64,000 nucleotides of DNA from Deltaproteobacteria bacterium (GTDB taxonomy: Bacteria; Myxococcota; B64-G9): assembly GCA_016935365.1 (NCBI GenBank), contig JAFGRB010000058.1, positions 35,850 to 99,849 of the forward strand, written 5' to 3'. Position numbers and translations under genes: made by a program. This document shows positions 50,726 to 58,051 of the stretch, one piece after another. Within the stretch, counting starts at the first letter, position 1, and each line of letters starts with the position of its first letter. The notes under the pieces were generated by a model. That model made no database searches. It was given only the letters and a program-made list of their open reading frames with translations, and was not told the origin of the DNA.

Positions 50726-53700
50726 TCATTCCTCGGCGAACAGGAGATGCTTGGCGCGCAGCACGCGCAGCACCTGCCGGTAGGAGCGGGGCGTGAGGGT
50801 GAAGCGCCGCTCGTCGGTGTGCTTGCGCTCCAGGTAGCCGTACTCGGTGAGGAAGCGGACCGCGAAGCCGGCGAAGTCCAGGTCCACGTTGAGCGCCCGG
50901 CGAAGCTCGTCCACGCTCAGGTTCTCGTGCTGGCAGAAGGCGCCCAGGGCGAAGAGGAGCTCGGGGTTCAGATTCTCGAGCTCGCTGTCCGGCGGGGACG
51001 GGAACAGGCCCACCCGCAGCCCGACCCCCTGGCCCTCGCCCTCGCTGTCCCCACCTTCGACTATCTCGGTCCTGAGGGACTTGAGCCACAGGTAGGTCGC
51101 CAGCCGGGGGTTGCCGCCGCTGGCCTCGGTCAGCAGGCGGAAGTAACCCTCGGCGCTCTCGATCACCTCCAGGTCCCCGGAAGCGCTGCGCTCGCCGTCC
51201 AGCAAAAAGTCGTCGAACTCGATCACGAGGCCGGTCTTGCGGTTGCGCTGCGCGATGAGCTCCTGGATCTCCTCCATGCGCCAGGCCGGCAGCTGCCTCA
51301 GCCGTCGGAAGTAGTGCAGGCGCTGGCGGCTCCGGTTGACGAAGTCCCAGGCGAAGGTGTTGAAGACCAGCACCCAGAAGACCTTCTCGCTGGTGAAGTT
51401 GACCAGGCGGGTGAGGGCCTCGAAGGACTCGTAGCCGTCCACCACCCGCAGGAAGAGGTTGTGCACCTCGTCCAGCAGCACGACCCGCTCGGATCCCTTG
51501 TTGAGCTGGGCAGCCAGTCCGCCCGTGTTCTTGACCTCCTCGAGCCCCAGGGCCTCGGCCAGGTCGGCGGCCATGGCCTTCTCGTCCAGCAGCTTGCGGG
51601 CGAAGGTGTGCTGCGAGACCGGCAGCGAGGTCAGGCGCTGGCCGAGCAGGTTCAGCAGCGTGGTCTTGCCCGCGCCCTTCTCTCCCAGCAGGACCAGGGA
51701 GCCGTCCTTGCGGTCCGCCAGCCAGGACTTGACTTGATCGAAGACCTCGCGCAGCAGCTCCTCGCGCGGCAGCAGGAGCGTCTCCTCGTCGCCCTGCAGG
51801 GGATAGAGGGGGAACTCCGCCAGGTAGGCCTCGGGAAGGGGCTGGCACTCCGCAGCCGCGCTGTCCGGTTGCGCCTTTTGCGATCGGCGCCTGAGCGATC
51901 GCGCCCGGAGGTAAGTCCCCAGGCCGCCGCCTTTGAGCAGGCGGGCTCCGAGGCCCCATACACCCGCCAGCACGAGCCACAGGAAGACGAGCGGTACGGC
52001 CGGGATCGCCCAGGCGGAGCCGGAGACGACAGCCCCCAGCCGCTTGCCCGCCGAGCCCTCCGGGTGACCGCCCACGAGCCATTGGCCCAGCGGGCGGCGC
52101 CAGGCAAAGGCGGCCCAGACCGCCCAGCCCAGCAGCCACAGCCAGGCGAACCACAGCACCAGGGTGCGCAGCGCGCCGGTGCCCAGGAAGTCCGCGCACC
52201 AGGCGTGCGCGATGGCCACCAGCGCCAGCATGAGCCCCACGCGGCCGTAGGTGACCTTGAGCAGCTCCACCGTGGCGGGCCGGGCGGCGATCAGGGCGGG
52301 TCGACCCCGGGAGACCTGGCGGGTGAGGCCCAGCAGCACCTGGCGGCCGAAGACGTAAAGCCACAGCCACAGGAAGGCGAGCTCGACGAAGCGCACCTCC
52401 GGGTGCTCGAAGCCGAGAAGCCCCAGAGTCAAATAGCCGCCGGCCAGCACGACCGCGCTGGGCATCAGGGCGTGGAAGAAGCCCGCCCAGCGGATGAGGG
52501 CCCCGCCGCGTCCGCGCATGGAACGCCGCCCCTTGAGCCAGCGCACGACCAGCGAGACCAGCCTGCGCGAGCGCGCGCGGAGCAGGACCGCCAGCGCGAA
52601 GGCCGCCAGGGCGGCCAGCATGCGAAGCGCCCACAGGCCGCCCTCGGGCGTCAGGACGAACTCTGGCAGCTGCCTCGCCTTCCCGAGCTTCTCCCCGGCC
52701 CAGGCGCTGAGCTTGTCGATCAGGCCCATCCCGTCGGCCTGCAGGTCGGACAGCAGCTCCGTGCCGAGCGAGTAGGCCCCGTCCCGGGTCTCGGCCGAGA
52801 CCAGGGGCGAGAGCAGGCTCAGGCGCAGGCGCGCGTCCACCAGCTGCCAGCGGTCCAGGCCGAGACTGCTCATCGAGGCCAGGCCATCCAGGCTCTCGAG
52901 GCGCGCCTGGATCTCGGCCAGCACCTCCTCGGCCTGCTCGGTCGTGTTGACGGCCGCGGGCTCGGGCAGCAAGCGGTCGAGCTCGGCGACGAGCCTGGCT
53001 GCCCGGACCGGGGCACGCGGCAGATCGGCCACCAGCCGCGACAGTTGGCGCAGCTCGACGAGCGTCTCGCGAAAGGCCTCGTCCAGGTCGGCCCAGTCCG
53101 GATCCAGGACCCGGCCCAGGACCAGCTCCAGGGTCTCGGCGCCTTCTCGCTCGAGCTCGGAAGCGGCCGCGATCGTCTCGGAGGCCAGGCGGGCGAGGAT
53201 CTCGGCCCGGCCATGCAAGGCCGCGCCCAGCGCGTCGAGCTCTCGGGAGATGGCCTCGCGGTCGACCCGCAGGCCTTCCAGGGCGCCGGCGTGGGCGCGC
53301 GCCGCCAGGCCCCGGACCCGGCCGTGCAGGGACGCCAGCGAGCCGGCCAGCCGCTCGAGGCCCTCGGCCTCGGCCCGCATTCCCCTGCGCGGCGCGGCCA
53401 GCTCGGCCAGCGCGGCCTGGCTCGCCTCGGGCAGAGCGCGCAGGCGCCCGGCCAGGGCCTCGAGAAAGGTCTTGCGGGCCCGGGCGATGGACAGGGCGGC
53501 CCTGGCCTGGGCGAGGTCGAGCTCGAGCTTCGCGCGGAGCTCCGAGCTCTCCCGCCCGTGCCGCTCGAGCGCCGCCGCGTGCTCCGCGACCCGCCGCGCG
53601 TGCTCCTCGGAGGCCTGCTGATAGGCTCTGACCGCCTCCCGGTAGGCCTCGTCTTCCGCGCCGCCGTCCGGCGCGCCGGCGTCCCGTCCGCCGTCCGCGC

Positions 53701-54070
53701 CGGCCCGCGGAGGCTCGGGCGCGGGCCCGGGCGGCTCGGGGGGCGGCAGCTCGGTCTCGATCCTTGCGAGCCGGCTCTCGAGCCGCTCTGCGGCCGCAGC
53801 CTGCATCTCGATCTCGACCGCCAGCTCGGAGAGCCGGCGCTCGACAGCCCCGAGCTCGTGCAGCGGGAAGGTGAACAGGCTGGCAGCGGTCACGCCCGCC
53901 ATGGGCCGGCCCTCGACCAGCGCCTGGAGCCTCTCCTTCTGGACCTCGAGGGCCGGGTCCAGCGCGGTCGGCTCCGCCGGCGGATCGCCCGCATGGGCGT
54001 TCGGGGTGACGGCGAGCCACAGCGCCAGGAGATAGGCGGTCTTTGCGGCGAGGCCCGGGCTGCGGTCCAT
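50726..54070 (-). CDS. Large membrane protein: N-terminal coiled-coil, multiple TM helices, C-terminal AAA-type NTPase
   Basis: Signal peptide; long Leu/Ala/Arg coiled-coil; Walker A LLGEKGAGKTTLLN, Walker B VVLLDEVHN; C-terminal winged-helix-like region. Confidence 0.75.
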   Translation of the reverse strand: MDRSPGLAAKTAYLLALWLAVTPNAHAGDPPAEPTALDPALEVQKERLQALVEGRPMAGVTAASLFTFPLHELGAVERRLSELAVEIEMQAAAAERLESRLARIETELPPPEPPGPAPEPPRAGADGGRDAGAPDGGAEDEAYREAVRAYQQASEEHARRVAEHAAALERHGRESSELRAKLELDLAQARAALSIARARKTFLEALAGRLRALPEASQAALAELAAPRRGMRAEAEGLERLAGSLASLHGRVRGLAARAHAGALEGLRVDREAISRELDALGAALHGRAEILARLASETIAAASELEREGAETLELVLGRVLDPDWADLDEAFRETLVELRQLSRLVADLPRAPVRAARLVAELDRLLPEPAAVNTTEQAEEVLAEIQARLESLDGLASMSSLGLDRWQLVDARLRLSLLSPLVSAETRDGAYSLGTELLSDLQADGMGLIDKLSAWAGEKLGKARQLPEFVLTPEGGLWALRMLAALAAFALAVLLRARSRRLVSLVVRWLKGRRSMRGRGGALIRWAGFFHALMPSAVVLAGGYLTLGLLGFEHPEVRFVELAFLWLWLYVFGRQVLLGLTRQVSRGRPALIAARPATVELLKVTYGRVGLMLALVAIAHAWCADFLGTGALRTLVLWFAWLWLLGWAVWAAFAWRRPLGQWLVGGHPEGSAGKRLGAVVSGSAWAIPAVPLVFLWLVLAGVWGLGARLLKGGGLGTYLRARSLRRRSQKAQPDSAAAECQPLPEAYLAEFPLYPLQGDEETLLLPREELLREVFDQVKSWLADRKDGSLVLLGEKGAGKTTLLNLLGQRLTSLPVSQHTFARKLLDEKAMAADLAEALGLEEVKNTGGLAAQLNKGSERVVLLDEVHNLFLRVVDGYESFEALTRLVNFTSEKVFWVLVFNTFAWDFVNRSRQRLHYFRRLRQLPAWRMEEIQELIAQRNRKTGLVIEFDDFLLDGERSASGDLEVIESAEGYFRLLTEASGGNPRLATYLWLKSLRTEIVEGGDSEGEGQGVGLRVGLFPSPPDSELENLNPELLFALGAFCQHENLSVDELRRALNVDLDFAGFAVRFLTEYGYLERKHTDERRFTLTPRSYRQVLRVLRAKHLLFAEE

Positions 54071-54228
54071 GGGCGTGGATTGTGTGGCAGGCGGCCCTCG
54101 AAGTCAACAAGACGCCCGGAGTCTCGTTTTCGCCTCCGAGAAAGTGCGCAATCTTTCTCGAATGCTCCGTCTCCTTATGCGATGGAACTCGAACACGGGC
54201 TTCGGTCATGGCCGAAAAAGGAGACGAT

Positions 54229-56472
54229 ATGAGAACTTGGCTTGTTTCGCTCTGCGCTGTCTGCGCCGTGGCCTGCGGGGGCGGGCAGCCGGTGGACAGC
54301 GGCGACTGCGAGGCGGGCGCGCAGCGCTGCGATGGGGAGCGGCTCGAGCAGTGCGCCGACGGCGCCTGGTCCCTGGTGCAGGACTGCTCGCTGGACGGGC
54401 AGAGCTGCGAGATGCTCTCCGACACGGCCGCGGAGTGCCGCAGCGCCGGGGACTGCAGCACCGGGCAGCAGCGCTGCAGCGGGGAACTGCTCGAGTACTG
54501 CGACCGGGGCAGCTGGGTGGCCCAGCAGAACTGCGCCCTGGGAGGCGAGTCCTGCGTCGCTCTCACGGAGACGACGGCCGAGTGCCGGGACCTCGCCTGC
54601 CAGGAGGGCGATCAACGCTGTGATGGAGAGATCCTCGAGTACTGCCTCGATGGGGAGTGGAGCTTCCAGCAGAACTGCGGCCTTTCCGGGCTCGAGTGCG
54701 TGCCCTTGTCCGAGACCGCGGCCGAGTGTCGGGACCTCGCCTGCCAGGAGGGCGCGCGGCGCTGCGACGGAGAGATCCTCGAGTACTGCCTGGACGGGGA
54801 GTGGAGCTTCCAGCAGAACTGCGGCCTCGCCGGGCTCGAGTGCGTGCCTTTATCCGAGACCGCGGCCGAGTGCCAAGATCTCGCCTGCCAGGAGGGCGCG
54901 CGGCGCTGCGACGGCGATGTCCTGGAGTACTGCCGGGACGGGGAGTGGAGCTTCCAGCAGAACTGCGGCCTTACCGGGCTCGAGTGCGTGCCTCTGTCCG
55001 AGACCGCGGCCGAGTGCCGGGACCTCGCCTGCCAGAACGGCGATCAGCGCTGCGACGGCGATGTCCTGGAGTACTGCCTCGACGGCGGCTGGACCGTCCA
55101 GCAGAACTGCGGCCTCGCCGGGCTCGCCTGCGTCGCCAGCTCCGAGACGGCGGCCCAATGCCAGGCCGGAGGCTGCGCGGAAGGGGAGCAACGCTGCTTG
55201 GGGGATCGGCTCGAGGCGTGCGCCGACGGCGAGTGGGCGCTTCTTCAGGACTGCGCGCTCGGCGAGGAGCACTGCGTGCCGACCTCGCAGACGACCGCCG
55301 TCTGCCAGGGCGACGGCAGCTGCGAGAACGGCCGCCAGCGGTGCCTGGACGACATTCTGCAGCGCTGCGTGGACGAGGCCTGGACGACCGAGGAGAACTG
55401 CGGACTCGGCGGCGAGGTCTGCGTCCCGCTGACGGAGAGCACGGCCGAGTGCCGGTGCCAGCCGGACTGCGACGGCAGGCTGTGCGGCGGAGACGGCTGC
55501 GGCGGGACCTGCGGCACCTGCGCCACCGGGACCTGCAACGAGCAGACCGGGCAGTGCGAGGTCGGCGAGGGCGAGCTTCGCGTGCAGCTGCGCTGGGACA
55601 CCGCCGACACCGACCTCGATCTCCGGATCCTGAGGGGGAGCACGACGGACTACTGCTCCAACGACTCCTGCTACTACGCCAACTGCGTGCCCGGCGCGAG
55701 CCCGTGGCCCGAGTGGGACGGGGACAGCGGGCGGACCCCCGGCGATCCCGTCCTGGAGCTGGACGACATCGAGGGCTTCGGTCCGGAGCTCGTCTTGATC
55801 CAGGAGCCGGTGGATGCGACCTACCGGGTGGCGGTCCACTACTGGGGGCCGGGGACCGGGGCCCGGAGCTGGGCGTCGGTCAGCGTCTTCGTGGGCGAGA
55901 CGCTCATCGCCGAGGACGGCCGCATGCTCGACCCGCACGACCTCTGGGAGCCGTTCCGTATCGAGTGGGACGCGGGGAGCGCGACGGTGCACGCCTTCGA
56001 CGGCCTGTGGCGGGACGTCTCCCTCGCGGGCGGCTCGTGCGTCGTGAACACCACGCCCTGTGAAGAGGACCGCGACTGCCCCGCGGATCAGTACTGCGCC
56101 GAGGGCGTGTGCGCGGCCGGGTGCCGCGACGACGGCTCGTGCACCGGCGCCTGCGGCGGCGCTGCGGAGTGCGTCTGCAACGACGCGCACCTGTGCGTGG
56201 ATCCGAACGCCGGCACGCTCGGCATGCCGTGCGTCGAGCCGGCGGACTGCAGCCAGGGCGAGTGGTGCTCCTACGACGACATCCTCAACGGCATCCTGTG
56301 CGAGATGCTCGGTCTGCCCGGCATGTGCAGCAAGAGCTGCCACATGATCTGCGATCCGGACGCGCCCGTCTGTCCGGACGGGCAGACCTGCGGCAGCGCG
56401 GAGTCGCAGATCCTGGTGATCATCGGCACGCTCTACGGCGCCGACCTGGGAGACGACCTCCTCTGCTACTGA
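54229..56472 (+). CDS. Cys-rich repeat lipoprotein
   Basis: Lipobox AVACGGG; tandem DLACQEGARRCDGEILEYCLDGEWSFQQNCGLAGLECVPLSETAAECR. Confidence 0.8.
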   Translation: MRTWLVSLCAVCAVACGGGQPVDSGDCEAGAQRCDGERLEQCADGAWSLVQDCSLDGQSCEMLSDTAAECRSAGDCSTGQQRCSGELLEYCDRGSWVAQQNCALGGESCVALTETTAECRDLACQEGDQRCDGEILEYCLDGEWSFQQNCGLSGLECVPLSETAAECRDLACQEGARRCDGEILEYCLDGEWSFQQNCGLAGLECVPLSETAAECQDLACQEGARRCDGDVLEYCRDGEWSFQQNCGLTGLECVPLSETAAECRDLACQNGDQRCDGDVLEYCLDGGWTVQQNCGLAGLACVASSETAAQCQAGGCAEGEQRCLGDRLEACADGEWALLQDCALGEEHCVPTSQTTAVCQGDGSCENGRQRCLDDILQRCVDEAWTTEENCGLGGEVCVPLTESTAECRCQPDCDGRLCGGDGCGGTCGTCATGTCNEQTGQCEVGEGELRVQLRWDTADTDLDLRILRGSTTDYCSNDSCYYANCVPGASPWPEWDGDSGRTPGDPVLELDDIEGFGPELVLIQEPVDATYRVAVHYWGPGTGARSWASVSVFVGETLIAEDGRMLDPHDLWEPFRIEWDAGSATVHAFDGLWRDVSLAGGSCVVNTTPCEEDRDCPADQYCAEGVCAAGCRDDGSCTGACGGAAECVCNDAHLCVDPNAGTLGMPCVEPADCSQGEWCSYDDILNGILCEMLGLPGMCSKSCHMICDPDAPVCPDGQTCGSAESQILVIIGTLYGADLGDDLLCY
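54588..55163 (+). repeat. 144-bp (48-codon) tandem coding repeats, about four highly similar copies with divergent flanking copies
   Basis: Unit start GACCTCGCCTGCCAG recurs at about 54588, 54732, 54876 and 55020. Confidence 0.85.
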
Positions 56473-56480
56473 TCGATTCC

Positions 56481-56951
56481 TCATCGTGGCGCGAGCGCTT
56501 GTCGCATGTCGGCAAGGAGCCTGCTCTTTTTCTCCTGGAGTGCTTCGAGGAACCCCTCGAGCTTCTCGAGATGCCTGCCGGTGCTCGAGCCGAGCTCCGC
56601 GTGAAGGTCTTTCGCGTTGTCCGACAGTCCGAACTCCCTGATGTCCACCTTTGCCTCTTTGGCGGCGCGTAAAAACCACTCCTCGAGCCTTGGCGGTACG
56701 ACGACCAGAACGCTCTTTCTCGAGGGGTGTACCTTCAACTGAAGGGAGCCCATCTTCTCCTTGGTCGAAAACTCCTTCATGCGGCGGGGCTGATTACTCC
56801 CGGGATCCTGATCCACCAGGCCCACCGTGCCCTCGTATTTCCAGGCATTTCCGACCACTCGACCCTTGCCTCCGAGGTGCTTTATCGTCTCGCTCTCGTG
56901 TCCCAGGAAATGCACCAGCGCCGTGTCGGCGTAGCACTCGACGAAGATCAC
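56481..56951 (-). CDS. Small TOPRIM-like protein (GTG start) translationally coupled to an AAA ATPase
   Basis: VIFVECYADTALVHFLG (acidic E) ... GTVGLVDQDPG (DxD); GTG overlaps the ATPase stop (GTGA). Confidence 0.55.
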   Translation of the reverse strand: MIFVECYADTALVHFLGHESETIKHLGGKGRVVGNAWKYEGTVGLVDQDPGSNQPRRMKEFSTKEKMGSLQLKVHPSRKSVLVVVPPRLEEWFLRAAKEAKVDIREFGLSDNAKDLHAELGSSTGRHLEKLEGFLEALQEKKSRLLADMRQALAPR

Positions 56952-57943
56952 GCGCTTTCTCCGAAGTACTTGTCTACGGACAGAAAGACGTCCTCGGTGC
57001 CGTCCATCGCTTCCTCGATCTGCTTCTTTGTGAGCCTCTTCACGACCGTCTGGTTTTCGCGCAGGTCGACCGCGAAGCAGGCGAGCTGTTTGCTGGGTGT
57101 CTTCTCCAGCAAGGACATGAGGAAGTACGGATTGTGAGTGGCGAGGAAGTACTGGTTGCTCTCGTCGAGCGCGATCCGCTCGGCCAGGAACTTCGTGTAG
57201 TAGGGGAATGCGTGCGCTTCCGGCTCCTCGAAGGCCAGTACGCAGTCCTTGCTCGTGATCACGGCGGCCAGGAAGAACACCATGCGTCTGAGCGTGTCCG
57301 AGACCATGGACCATGAGTACGACACGGTCAGATCGCCTGTGTCGTGCAGGACCTTGAGGACATGCGTGGTGGCCGATGCCGAGGGATAGTCTCTGGCCTC
57401 CACGGAGAGGCGAAGGCCATACTCGCTGAAGATGTTCTGCAAGAGACGGCGCAGCTCGGCGTTGCTGTAGACGATCATTGCCAGGTTGCCGCCTCCTGGC
57501 GGAGAGAGGAACTGGAGGTTGTTCTCTCCTTCCCAGGAATCGAAGCGGTAGAACCTGTAGGTCATGAAGCTGTCTTTCCTCCCCGGGCCGGTGGAGTGGA
57601 ACTTGTAGTCGAAGAAGCTCTCTCGGATAGGATCGCCGTTACCAGCCCTGTGTTCGAACCAGGCCTTGGCGCCTTCTGCTCCCGACTCGATGATCACCTT
57701 GCCGAGGTCGAATCCTATCTCTGCGGTTCTGTCGAGGCTGCGTCCAAAGAAAAGATCATATGGGCCGCTCAGGCGAACGAACCGCTCGACGGATCCGTGG
57801 TATCCGGATGAGAGCAAGCCGATGACCTCGAGGATGTTGGATTTCCCGCTGTTCGGACGGCCGATGAAGACATTGACGCGTTCACAGCTGATCTTCACGT
57901 CGCGCAGCGACTTGAAGTTCTCTGCCGTCAGTTCCTTGATCAT
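56948..57943 (-). CDS. RecF/OLD-like AAA family ATPase
   Basis: MIKELTAENFKSLRDVKISCERVNVFIGRPNSGKSNILEVI (Walker A), CVLAFEEPEAHAFP (Walker B), QYFLATHNPYFL (switch His). Confidence 0.88.
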   Translation of the reverse strand: MIKELTAENFKSLRDVKISCERVNVFIGRPNSGKSNILEVIGLLSSGYHGSVERFVRLSGPYDLFFGRSLDRTAEIGFDLGKVIIESGAEGAKAWFEHRAGNGDPIRESFFDYKFHSTGPGRKDSFMTYRFYRFDSWEGENNLQFLSPPGGGNLAMIVYSNAELRRLLQNIFSEYGLRLSVEARDYPSASATTHVLKVLHDTGDLTVSYSWSMVSDTLRRMVFFLAAVITSKDCVLAFEEPEAHAFPYYTKFLAERIALDESNQYFLATHNPYFLMSLLEKTPSKQLACFAVDLRENQTVVKRLTKKQIEEAMDGTEDVFLSVDKYFGESA

Positions 57944-58051
57944 CGAGTGAATCTCCGTCTCAGATGCTCGGAAGAAGTATACCGCCGCAGGCGATCGCTC
58001 ACAAGTGAACCACGCGGGCGGGCGGGCGGCGAACCGCCCTTCCAAACAACA

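Follow-up and report, generated by a model that had tools for sequence, protein, structure and literature searches.

A pair of overlapping genes on the window (the whole stretch of DNA analysed here, 64,000 nucleotides in length) is interpreted as a horizontally moving two-gene module of the split OLD/PARIS-like kind, in which an ATPase would control a minimal Toprim nuclease, with the probability of this reading put at roughly 0.58. The features of the pair and of the adjoining tRNA cluster are as follows.

58284-58212, minus strand: tRNA-His (ARAGORN)
58208-58135, minus strand: tRNA-Pro (ARAGORN)
58125-58051, minus strand: tRNA-Asn (ARAGORN)
57976..58004, minus strand: candidate sigma-70 promoter TTGTGA-17-TATACT, between tRNA-Asn and the ATPase gene
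57943-56948, minus strand: ABC/OLD-type ATPase gene, 331 aa, ATG start (AAA_15/AAA_21; SMC/Rad50/OLD head fold)
57839..57862, minus strand: Walker A (P-loop) GRPNSGKS, from the translation; G-PN-GKS invariant in 8 relatives
57212..57238, minus strand: Walker B LAFEEPEAH, followed by THNP (H-loop); invariant in aligned relatives
56951-56481, minus strand: small partner gene, 156 aa, GTG start; putative minimal Toprim nuclease
56937..56939, minus strand: E5 codon, putative catalytic Toprim glutamate after strand 1 (FVEC); invariant in 16 homologues
56865..56879, minus strand: HLGGK motif (H25 to K29), counterpart of CGNK in AriB-like proteins
56805..56813, minus strand: DxD motif (D47-Q-D49) after strand 3; both D invariant, in register with VDKD/VDRD of DUF4435
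56682..56684, minus strand: E90 codon in PRLEEW, the fourth motif; L89, E90 and W92 invariant

The gene pair and its relatives

The two overlapping ORFs described in the initial annotation were confirmed at the coordinates listed above, both on the minus strand, with the stop codon (TGA) of the ATPase gene and the start codon (GTG) of the small gene sharing four bases (GTGA). Both are real genes, because the same gene order is kept across domains and the small gene shows a dN/dS of ~0.14 (0.237/1.75) in Thermococcales, this being the only pair with an unsaturated dS. The module is under purifying selection. The candidate promoter is weak, matching nine of the twelve consensus positions at a chance expectation of 0.4, and the tRNA cluster, situated upstream of the ATPase gene on the same strand, is a neighbour and not part of the module.

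Identification of the larger product as a RecF/OLD-like ATPase was borne out by Pfam matches to AAA_15 (E=2e-16) and AAA_21 (E=6e-13) and by its structural model (pLDDT 71), which was found to match the heads of SMC, Rad50 and RecN as well as the ATPases of OLD (6p74), PtuA and retrons (including retron Eco8). Walker A, Walker B (FEEPEAH) and the histidine of THNP are all intact in the window ATPase and invariant in its relatives. Among the PADLOC models, AriA was the best match, over part of the protein only, and the AbiLi model was also matched (E=4e-12). In a tree of the ATPases, all module members formed one clade apart from AriA and OLD proteins with 100/100 support, based on a small AriA/OLD sample (three AriA) and with long branches. 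Archaeal and bacterial members were found to be intermixed, with the window placed beside Bathyarchaeota (88/95).

Relatives of the ATPase (~40% identity) were identified in Thermococcales, Desulfurococcales, Staphylothermus, Bathyarchaeota, Latescibacterota and Chloroflexi. The small gene was found directly downstream of the ATPase gene in nine close archaeal and bacterial relatives, and the loci found by a reverse profile search with the small protein again carry the ATPase, the exception being locus L061. At all loci the two proteins are encoded by separate genes, with intergenic gaps of -4 to +17 bases among the pairs and the 4-bp overlap recurring.

Approximately one third of the copies found look broken (L025, L030, L049, L050, L058, L059 and L061), some of which may be explained by draft assemblies. 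The small gene is frameshifted in L025 and L030, and in L049, L050 and L059 the ATPase gene is broken with the adjoining small gene open. At L061 (Chloroflexi, 1357-1866), the start of the ATPase (MIREVEIEGFKSIRKLRT) runs directly into the latter half of the small gene, the scar of an internal deletion. In one archaeon (L124, 10387-11694; locus L052), the module ATPase was found to carry an in-frame plastocyanin-like copper-binding insert (PF00127, E=4e-6) between Walker A and the signature region, with a truncated small gene alongside. On one Desulfurococcales contig (L125; G196:C49, 3403-12755), three ATPase-led pairs were located inside 10 kb, namely the module, a 455-aa AAA_21 ATPase with a 272-aa partner for which no known family was found, and a divergent module copy (421 aa and 168 aa). 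The ATPase of the divergent pair matches the module profile (E=9e-25), and its small protein possesses ECYAN, RH, IIDKE and IEEAF, with the second D of the DxD motif replaced by E.

Distribution, mobility and genomic context

Among genomes from the phyla to which three of the relatives belong, the module was identified in 8 of 398 (Desulfurococcales member), 5 of 115 (Thermococcales member) and 5 of 400 (Chloroflexi member). In the window's own phylum, a convincing match to the small protein was found in one of 195 genomes, the window genome itself, which was also the sole match to the ATPase profile among 189. Weak small-protein matches in this phylum (E 0.005-0.1, mostly inside long frames) were judged to be due to chance. 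The GC content of the module is 0.56-0.60, compared to 0.65-0.77 for its surroundings. An intact module was not found in the viral contigs or plasmids searched; a Parabacteroides distasonis plasmid (L047, 4052-4528) was identified to carry only a truncated ATPase relative, a C-terminal half of 158 aa, and no small partner.

The initial annotation had allowed for a housekeeping pair conserved in all relatives at this locus, and this is contradicted by its absence from the other genomes searched in its own phylum and from ~96-99% of those in three other phyla. As the pair is sporadic, low in GC, spread across domains, often broken and under purifying selection, it seems to be an accessory, horizontally moved module and not a housekeeping one.

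The same observations bear on the alternative of an ATPase-nuclease pair with a chromosomal function in repair or the cell cycle, akin to Cran1 or to RecF/Rad50, whose accessory status is incidental. This would suit the closeness of the ATPase model to SMC, Rad50 and RecN heads and the lack of defence neighbours at most loci. Furthermore, Cran1, an OLD ATPase-nickase of the archaeal order Sulfolobales, acts in cell cycle progression and not in defence (PMC12796447), so the presence of an OLD-type ATPase does not by itself imply a defensive role. Cran1 resembles the module in being an archaeal OLD-type ATPase linked to a Toprim. However, it is a single fused protein that is vertically inherited in its order (PMC12796447), whereas the module is split and sporadic and is not inherited in this manner. 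Given also that 96-99% of genomes are without the pair, that the tree mixes domains, that many copies are broken and that the GC content is foreign, a repair or cell-cycle role is considered rather unlikely, and an accessory mobile module is preferred.

The suggestion in the initial annotation that the tRNA cluster served as an insertion site was not supported. No integrase was found, nor was a direct repeat of a tRNA end (att) on the other side of the module, and most relatives are not situated beside tRNAs, with a tRNA detected near only one other module locus (ARAGORN). Comparison of the flanking region showed that the tRNA cluster matches relatives in fragments only, giving no clean empty site. 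The archaeal copy at L025 (5480-6020) adjoins two sequences that resemble, on visual inspection, tRNA genes with introns; neither was called by ARAGORN in bacterial mode.

PADLOC matches near 17 loci comprised 77 families, compared to 35 in control regions of the same genomes (120 proteins each). This excess comes from a few loci, namely the Desulfurococcales locus with three ATPase-led pairs and two others with methyltransferases nearby, and most copies lie outside clear defence islands. No UvrD-type helicase or reverse transcriptase was seen beside the pair, its neighbours in the window being the tRNAs and a repeat protein, with an SNF2 helicase two genes away. The repeat protein (54133-56472, plus strand) is of a Cys-rich secreted type with approximately eight repeats of 144-147 bp (62-89% alike), and no credible Pfam family was found for it. 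A large putative membrane protein with an AAA_22 ATPase domain at its end is encoded at 50726-54070 on the minus strand, in DNA with a GC content of up to 0.77.

The small protein as a putative Toprim nuclease

The acidic positions that had been taken as TOPRIM-type (VECYAD, VDQDPG) are present, and E5, D47 and D49 were found to be invariant across 16 homologues (down to 19% identity), together with C6, H25, P55, L89, E90, W92 and L109, with K29 being nearly invariant. E5 aligns with FFEG of AriB-like proteins. The segment PRLEEWF resembles SIENYL of DUF4435 and CFELWL (FELW) of RloB, a likeness judged by eye and not aligned by hhalign. The AlphaFold model of the protein (pLDDT 92.5, pTM 0.87) has the order strand-E-helix-strand-helix-strand-DxD, with E5 after strand 1, HxGxK after strand 2 and DxD after strand 3. 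This agrees with the Toprim order of a glutamate after strand 1, a glycine in the second motif and DxD after strand 3 within a beta-alpha-beta-alpha-beta arrangement.

Searches of Pfam, PADLOC, NCBIfam, PHROGs and PDB (by sequence) revealed no family match for the small protein, including none to RloB (PF13707) in Pfam, and none of 8-16 homologues matched DUF4435 (PF14491) or the PADLOC AriB model. Foldseek comparison of the model with PDB and viral structures gave nothing below E=0.04, neither a Toprim nor another fold. Comparison with AriB/DUF4435 using hhalign gave scores of 25-31 against shuffle means of 12-17, at a low probability (9-26%). These scores were equalled by none of 150 full-column shuffles and by none or one of 150 block shuffles for each of four DUF4435 sets, which overlap in part. 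The alignment pairs VEC with FEG, GGK with GGR/GNK and VDQD with VDRD. OLD-Toprim and RloB were rejected as the closest kin of the protein, their profile scores being no better than those of shuffles. Of the families that the initial annotation had named for profile comparison, DUF4435 alone stood above shuffles; PADLOC, named there as well, left the small protein unmatched and gave AriA, over part of the length, as the best match to the ATPase.

As the motifs are in register above the level of shuffles, but the hhalign probability is low and the fold search empty, the small protein is regarded as a likely rather than a proven Toprim. The invariant motifs, the order of secondary structure and the DUF4435/AriB comparison argue for this assignment, and the Pfam, PDB sequence and Foldseek searches do not. 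Catalysis of the Toprim type by the protein is, to a similar degree, probable. It could instead be a regulatory or adaptor subunit of the ATPase with no nuclease activity, in which the acidic residues serve only to bind metal or nucleic acid, as its lack of any family or fold match and the EC in place of the usual EG after strand 1 might suggest. Nevertheless, the invariant residues cluster where the Toprim motifs lie, and the alignment to the AriB/DUF4435 profile is in register and scores above shuffles, making such a subunit unlikely and a minimal Toprim nuclease the preferred identity.

Known systems and proposed mode of action

In PARIS, AriB is a dimeric Toprim nuclease kept inactive by a hexamer of the ATPase AriA; once freed by a viral trigger, it cleaves tRNA and so halts translation (PMC12409363, PMC11455837). 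The module has in common with PARIS (AriA and the DUF4435 Toprim AriB; class 4 split OLD) a Toprim-like gene that stands separately after the ATPase gene, with the E-(G/C)-N-x-D, GNK and DxD motifs in register with AriB-like proteins. It differs in the size of its partner (156 aa compared to 298-329) and ATPase (331 aa compared to 460-512), in having no DUF4435 match at cut-off and in an ATPase clade apart from AriA (100/100). Genuine DUF4435 partners were located downstream of AAA ATPases on plasmids.

AbiL (AbiLi ATPase and AbiLii/RloB) is likewise composed of two genes for an ATPase and a small nuclease-like partner, with FExW of RloB resembling LEEW of the module and the AbiLi model matching the module ATPase, but the module partner has no RloB Pfam match and RloB ORFs are of 210-274 aa. 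The earlier remark that the partner is smaller than known ones therefore holds against AriB and less so against RloB/AbiLii-type ORFs. OLD proteins of classes 1-3 (P2 Old, Gabija GajA, retron Eco8) follow the same ABC ATPase and Toprim plan, but with the Toprim fused to the ATPase, and the module also lacks the adjacent UvrD-like helicase gene of Gabija. The module would operate in much the manner of a miniature split-OLD/PARIS or AbiL system, while by sequence and gene layout it falls outside the PARIS, AbiL, Gabija and classical OLD families. Literature searches found no description of the pair. Taken overall, the reading given in the initial annotation is broadly, though only partly, borne out.

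A PARIS-like division of labour is the best guess for its action, since AriB-type Toprims come closest to the partner. An oligomer of the ATPase would sense a virus-related signal while keeping the small protein inactive, and upon sensing, an ATP-dependent rearrangement would release or license the small protein. This protein, a minimal metal-dependent Toprim nuclease (E5, D47, D49 and probably E90), would then attack nucleic acid: host tRNA is the most likely substrate (as for AriB), with DNA (as for OLD) the alternative, and cleavage would halt growth before the virus multiplies. An antiviral role is plausible and somewhat favoured, sequestration of the small protein by the ATPase is an even bet and, given defence, the choice of tRNA over DNA as target is finely balanced. 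Since the ATPase is compact and its partner half-sized, the oligomer and target could differ from those of PARIS. DNA cleavage and roles outside defence are also possible, given that DNA is the substrate of OLD proteins in other classes (PMC10568477) and that Cran1, a nickase, works in the cell cycle (PMC12796447).

PARIS has itself been described as toxin-antitoxin like (PMC11455837) and the module's genes overlap tightly and are co-inherited, but a selfish pair that maintains itself by addiction, its ATPase acting as antidote to the small nuclease and any defence being no more than a by-product, is distinctly improbable, as copies with a broken ATPase and an open small gene (L049, L050, L059) should be toxic if addiction were simple, unless they are assembly errors, and apart from the truncated ATPase none was found on the plasmids searched.

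More tentatively, and at somewhat less than even odds, the split OLD/PARIS-like module may represent a hitherto undescribed class of split immune systems within the OLD family, centred on archaea and more compact than any known (a 320-330-aa ATPase head and a free-standing 150-160-aa minimal Toprim nuclease), swapped between archaea and bacteria and having divergent sister pairs with different partners. To our knowledge, few archaeal defence systems have been worked out. Class 4 OLD (split, PARIS) has been reported in bacteria only, and the one characterized archaeal OLD protein is not defensive (PMC12796447); the module allows split-OLD defence in archaea to be asked about directly, and it occurs in Thermococcales, where genetics exist. 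It also opens the questions of the minimum that a Toprim needs to cut tRNA or DNA and of how such systems cross domains. The window's own genome was found to encode, elsewhere, an RloB gene and two weak DUF4435-like genes (contigs C277, C122 and C23; L063, L075 and L076).
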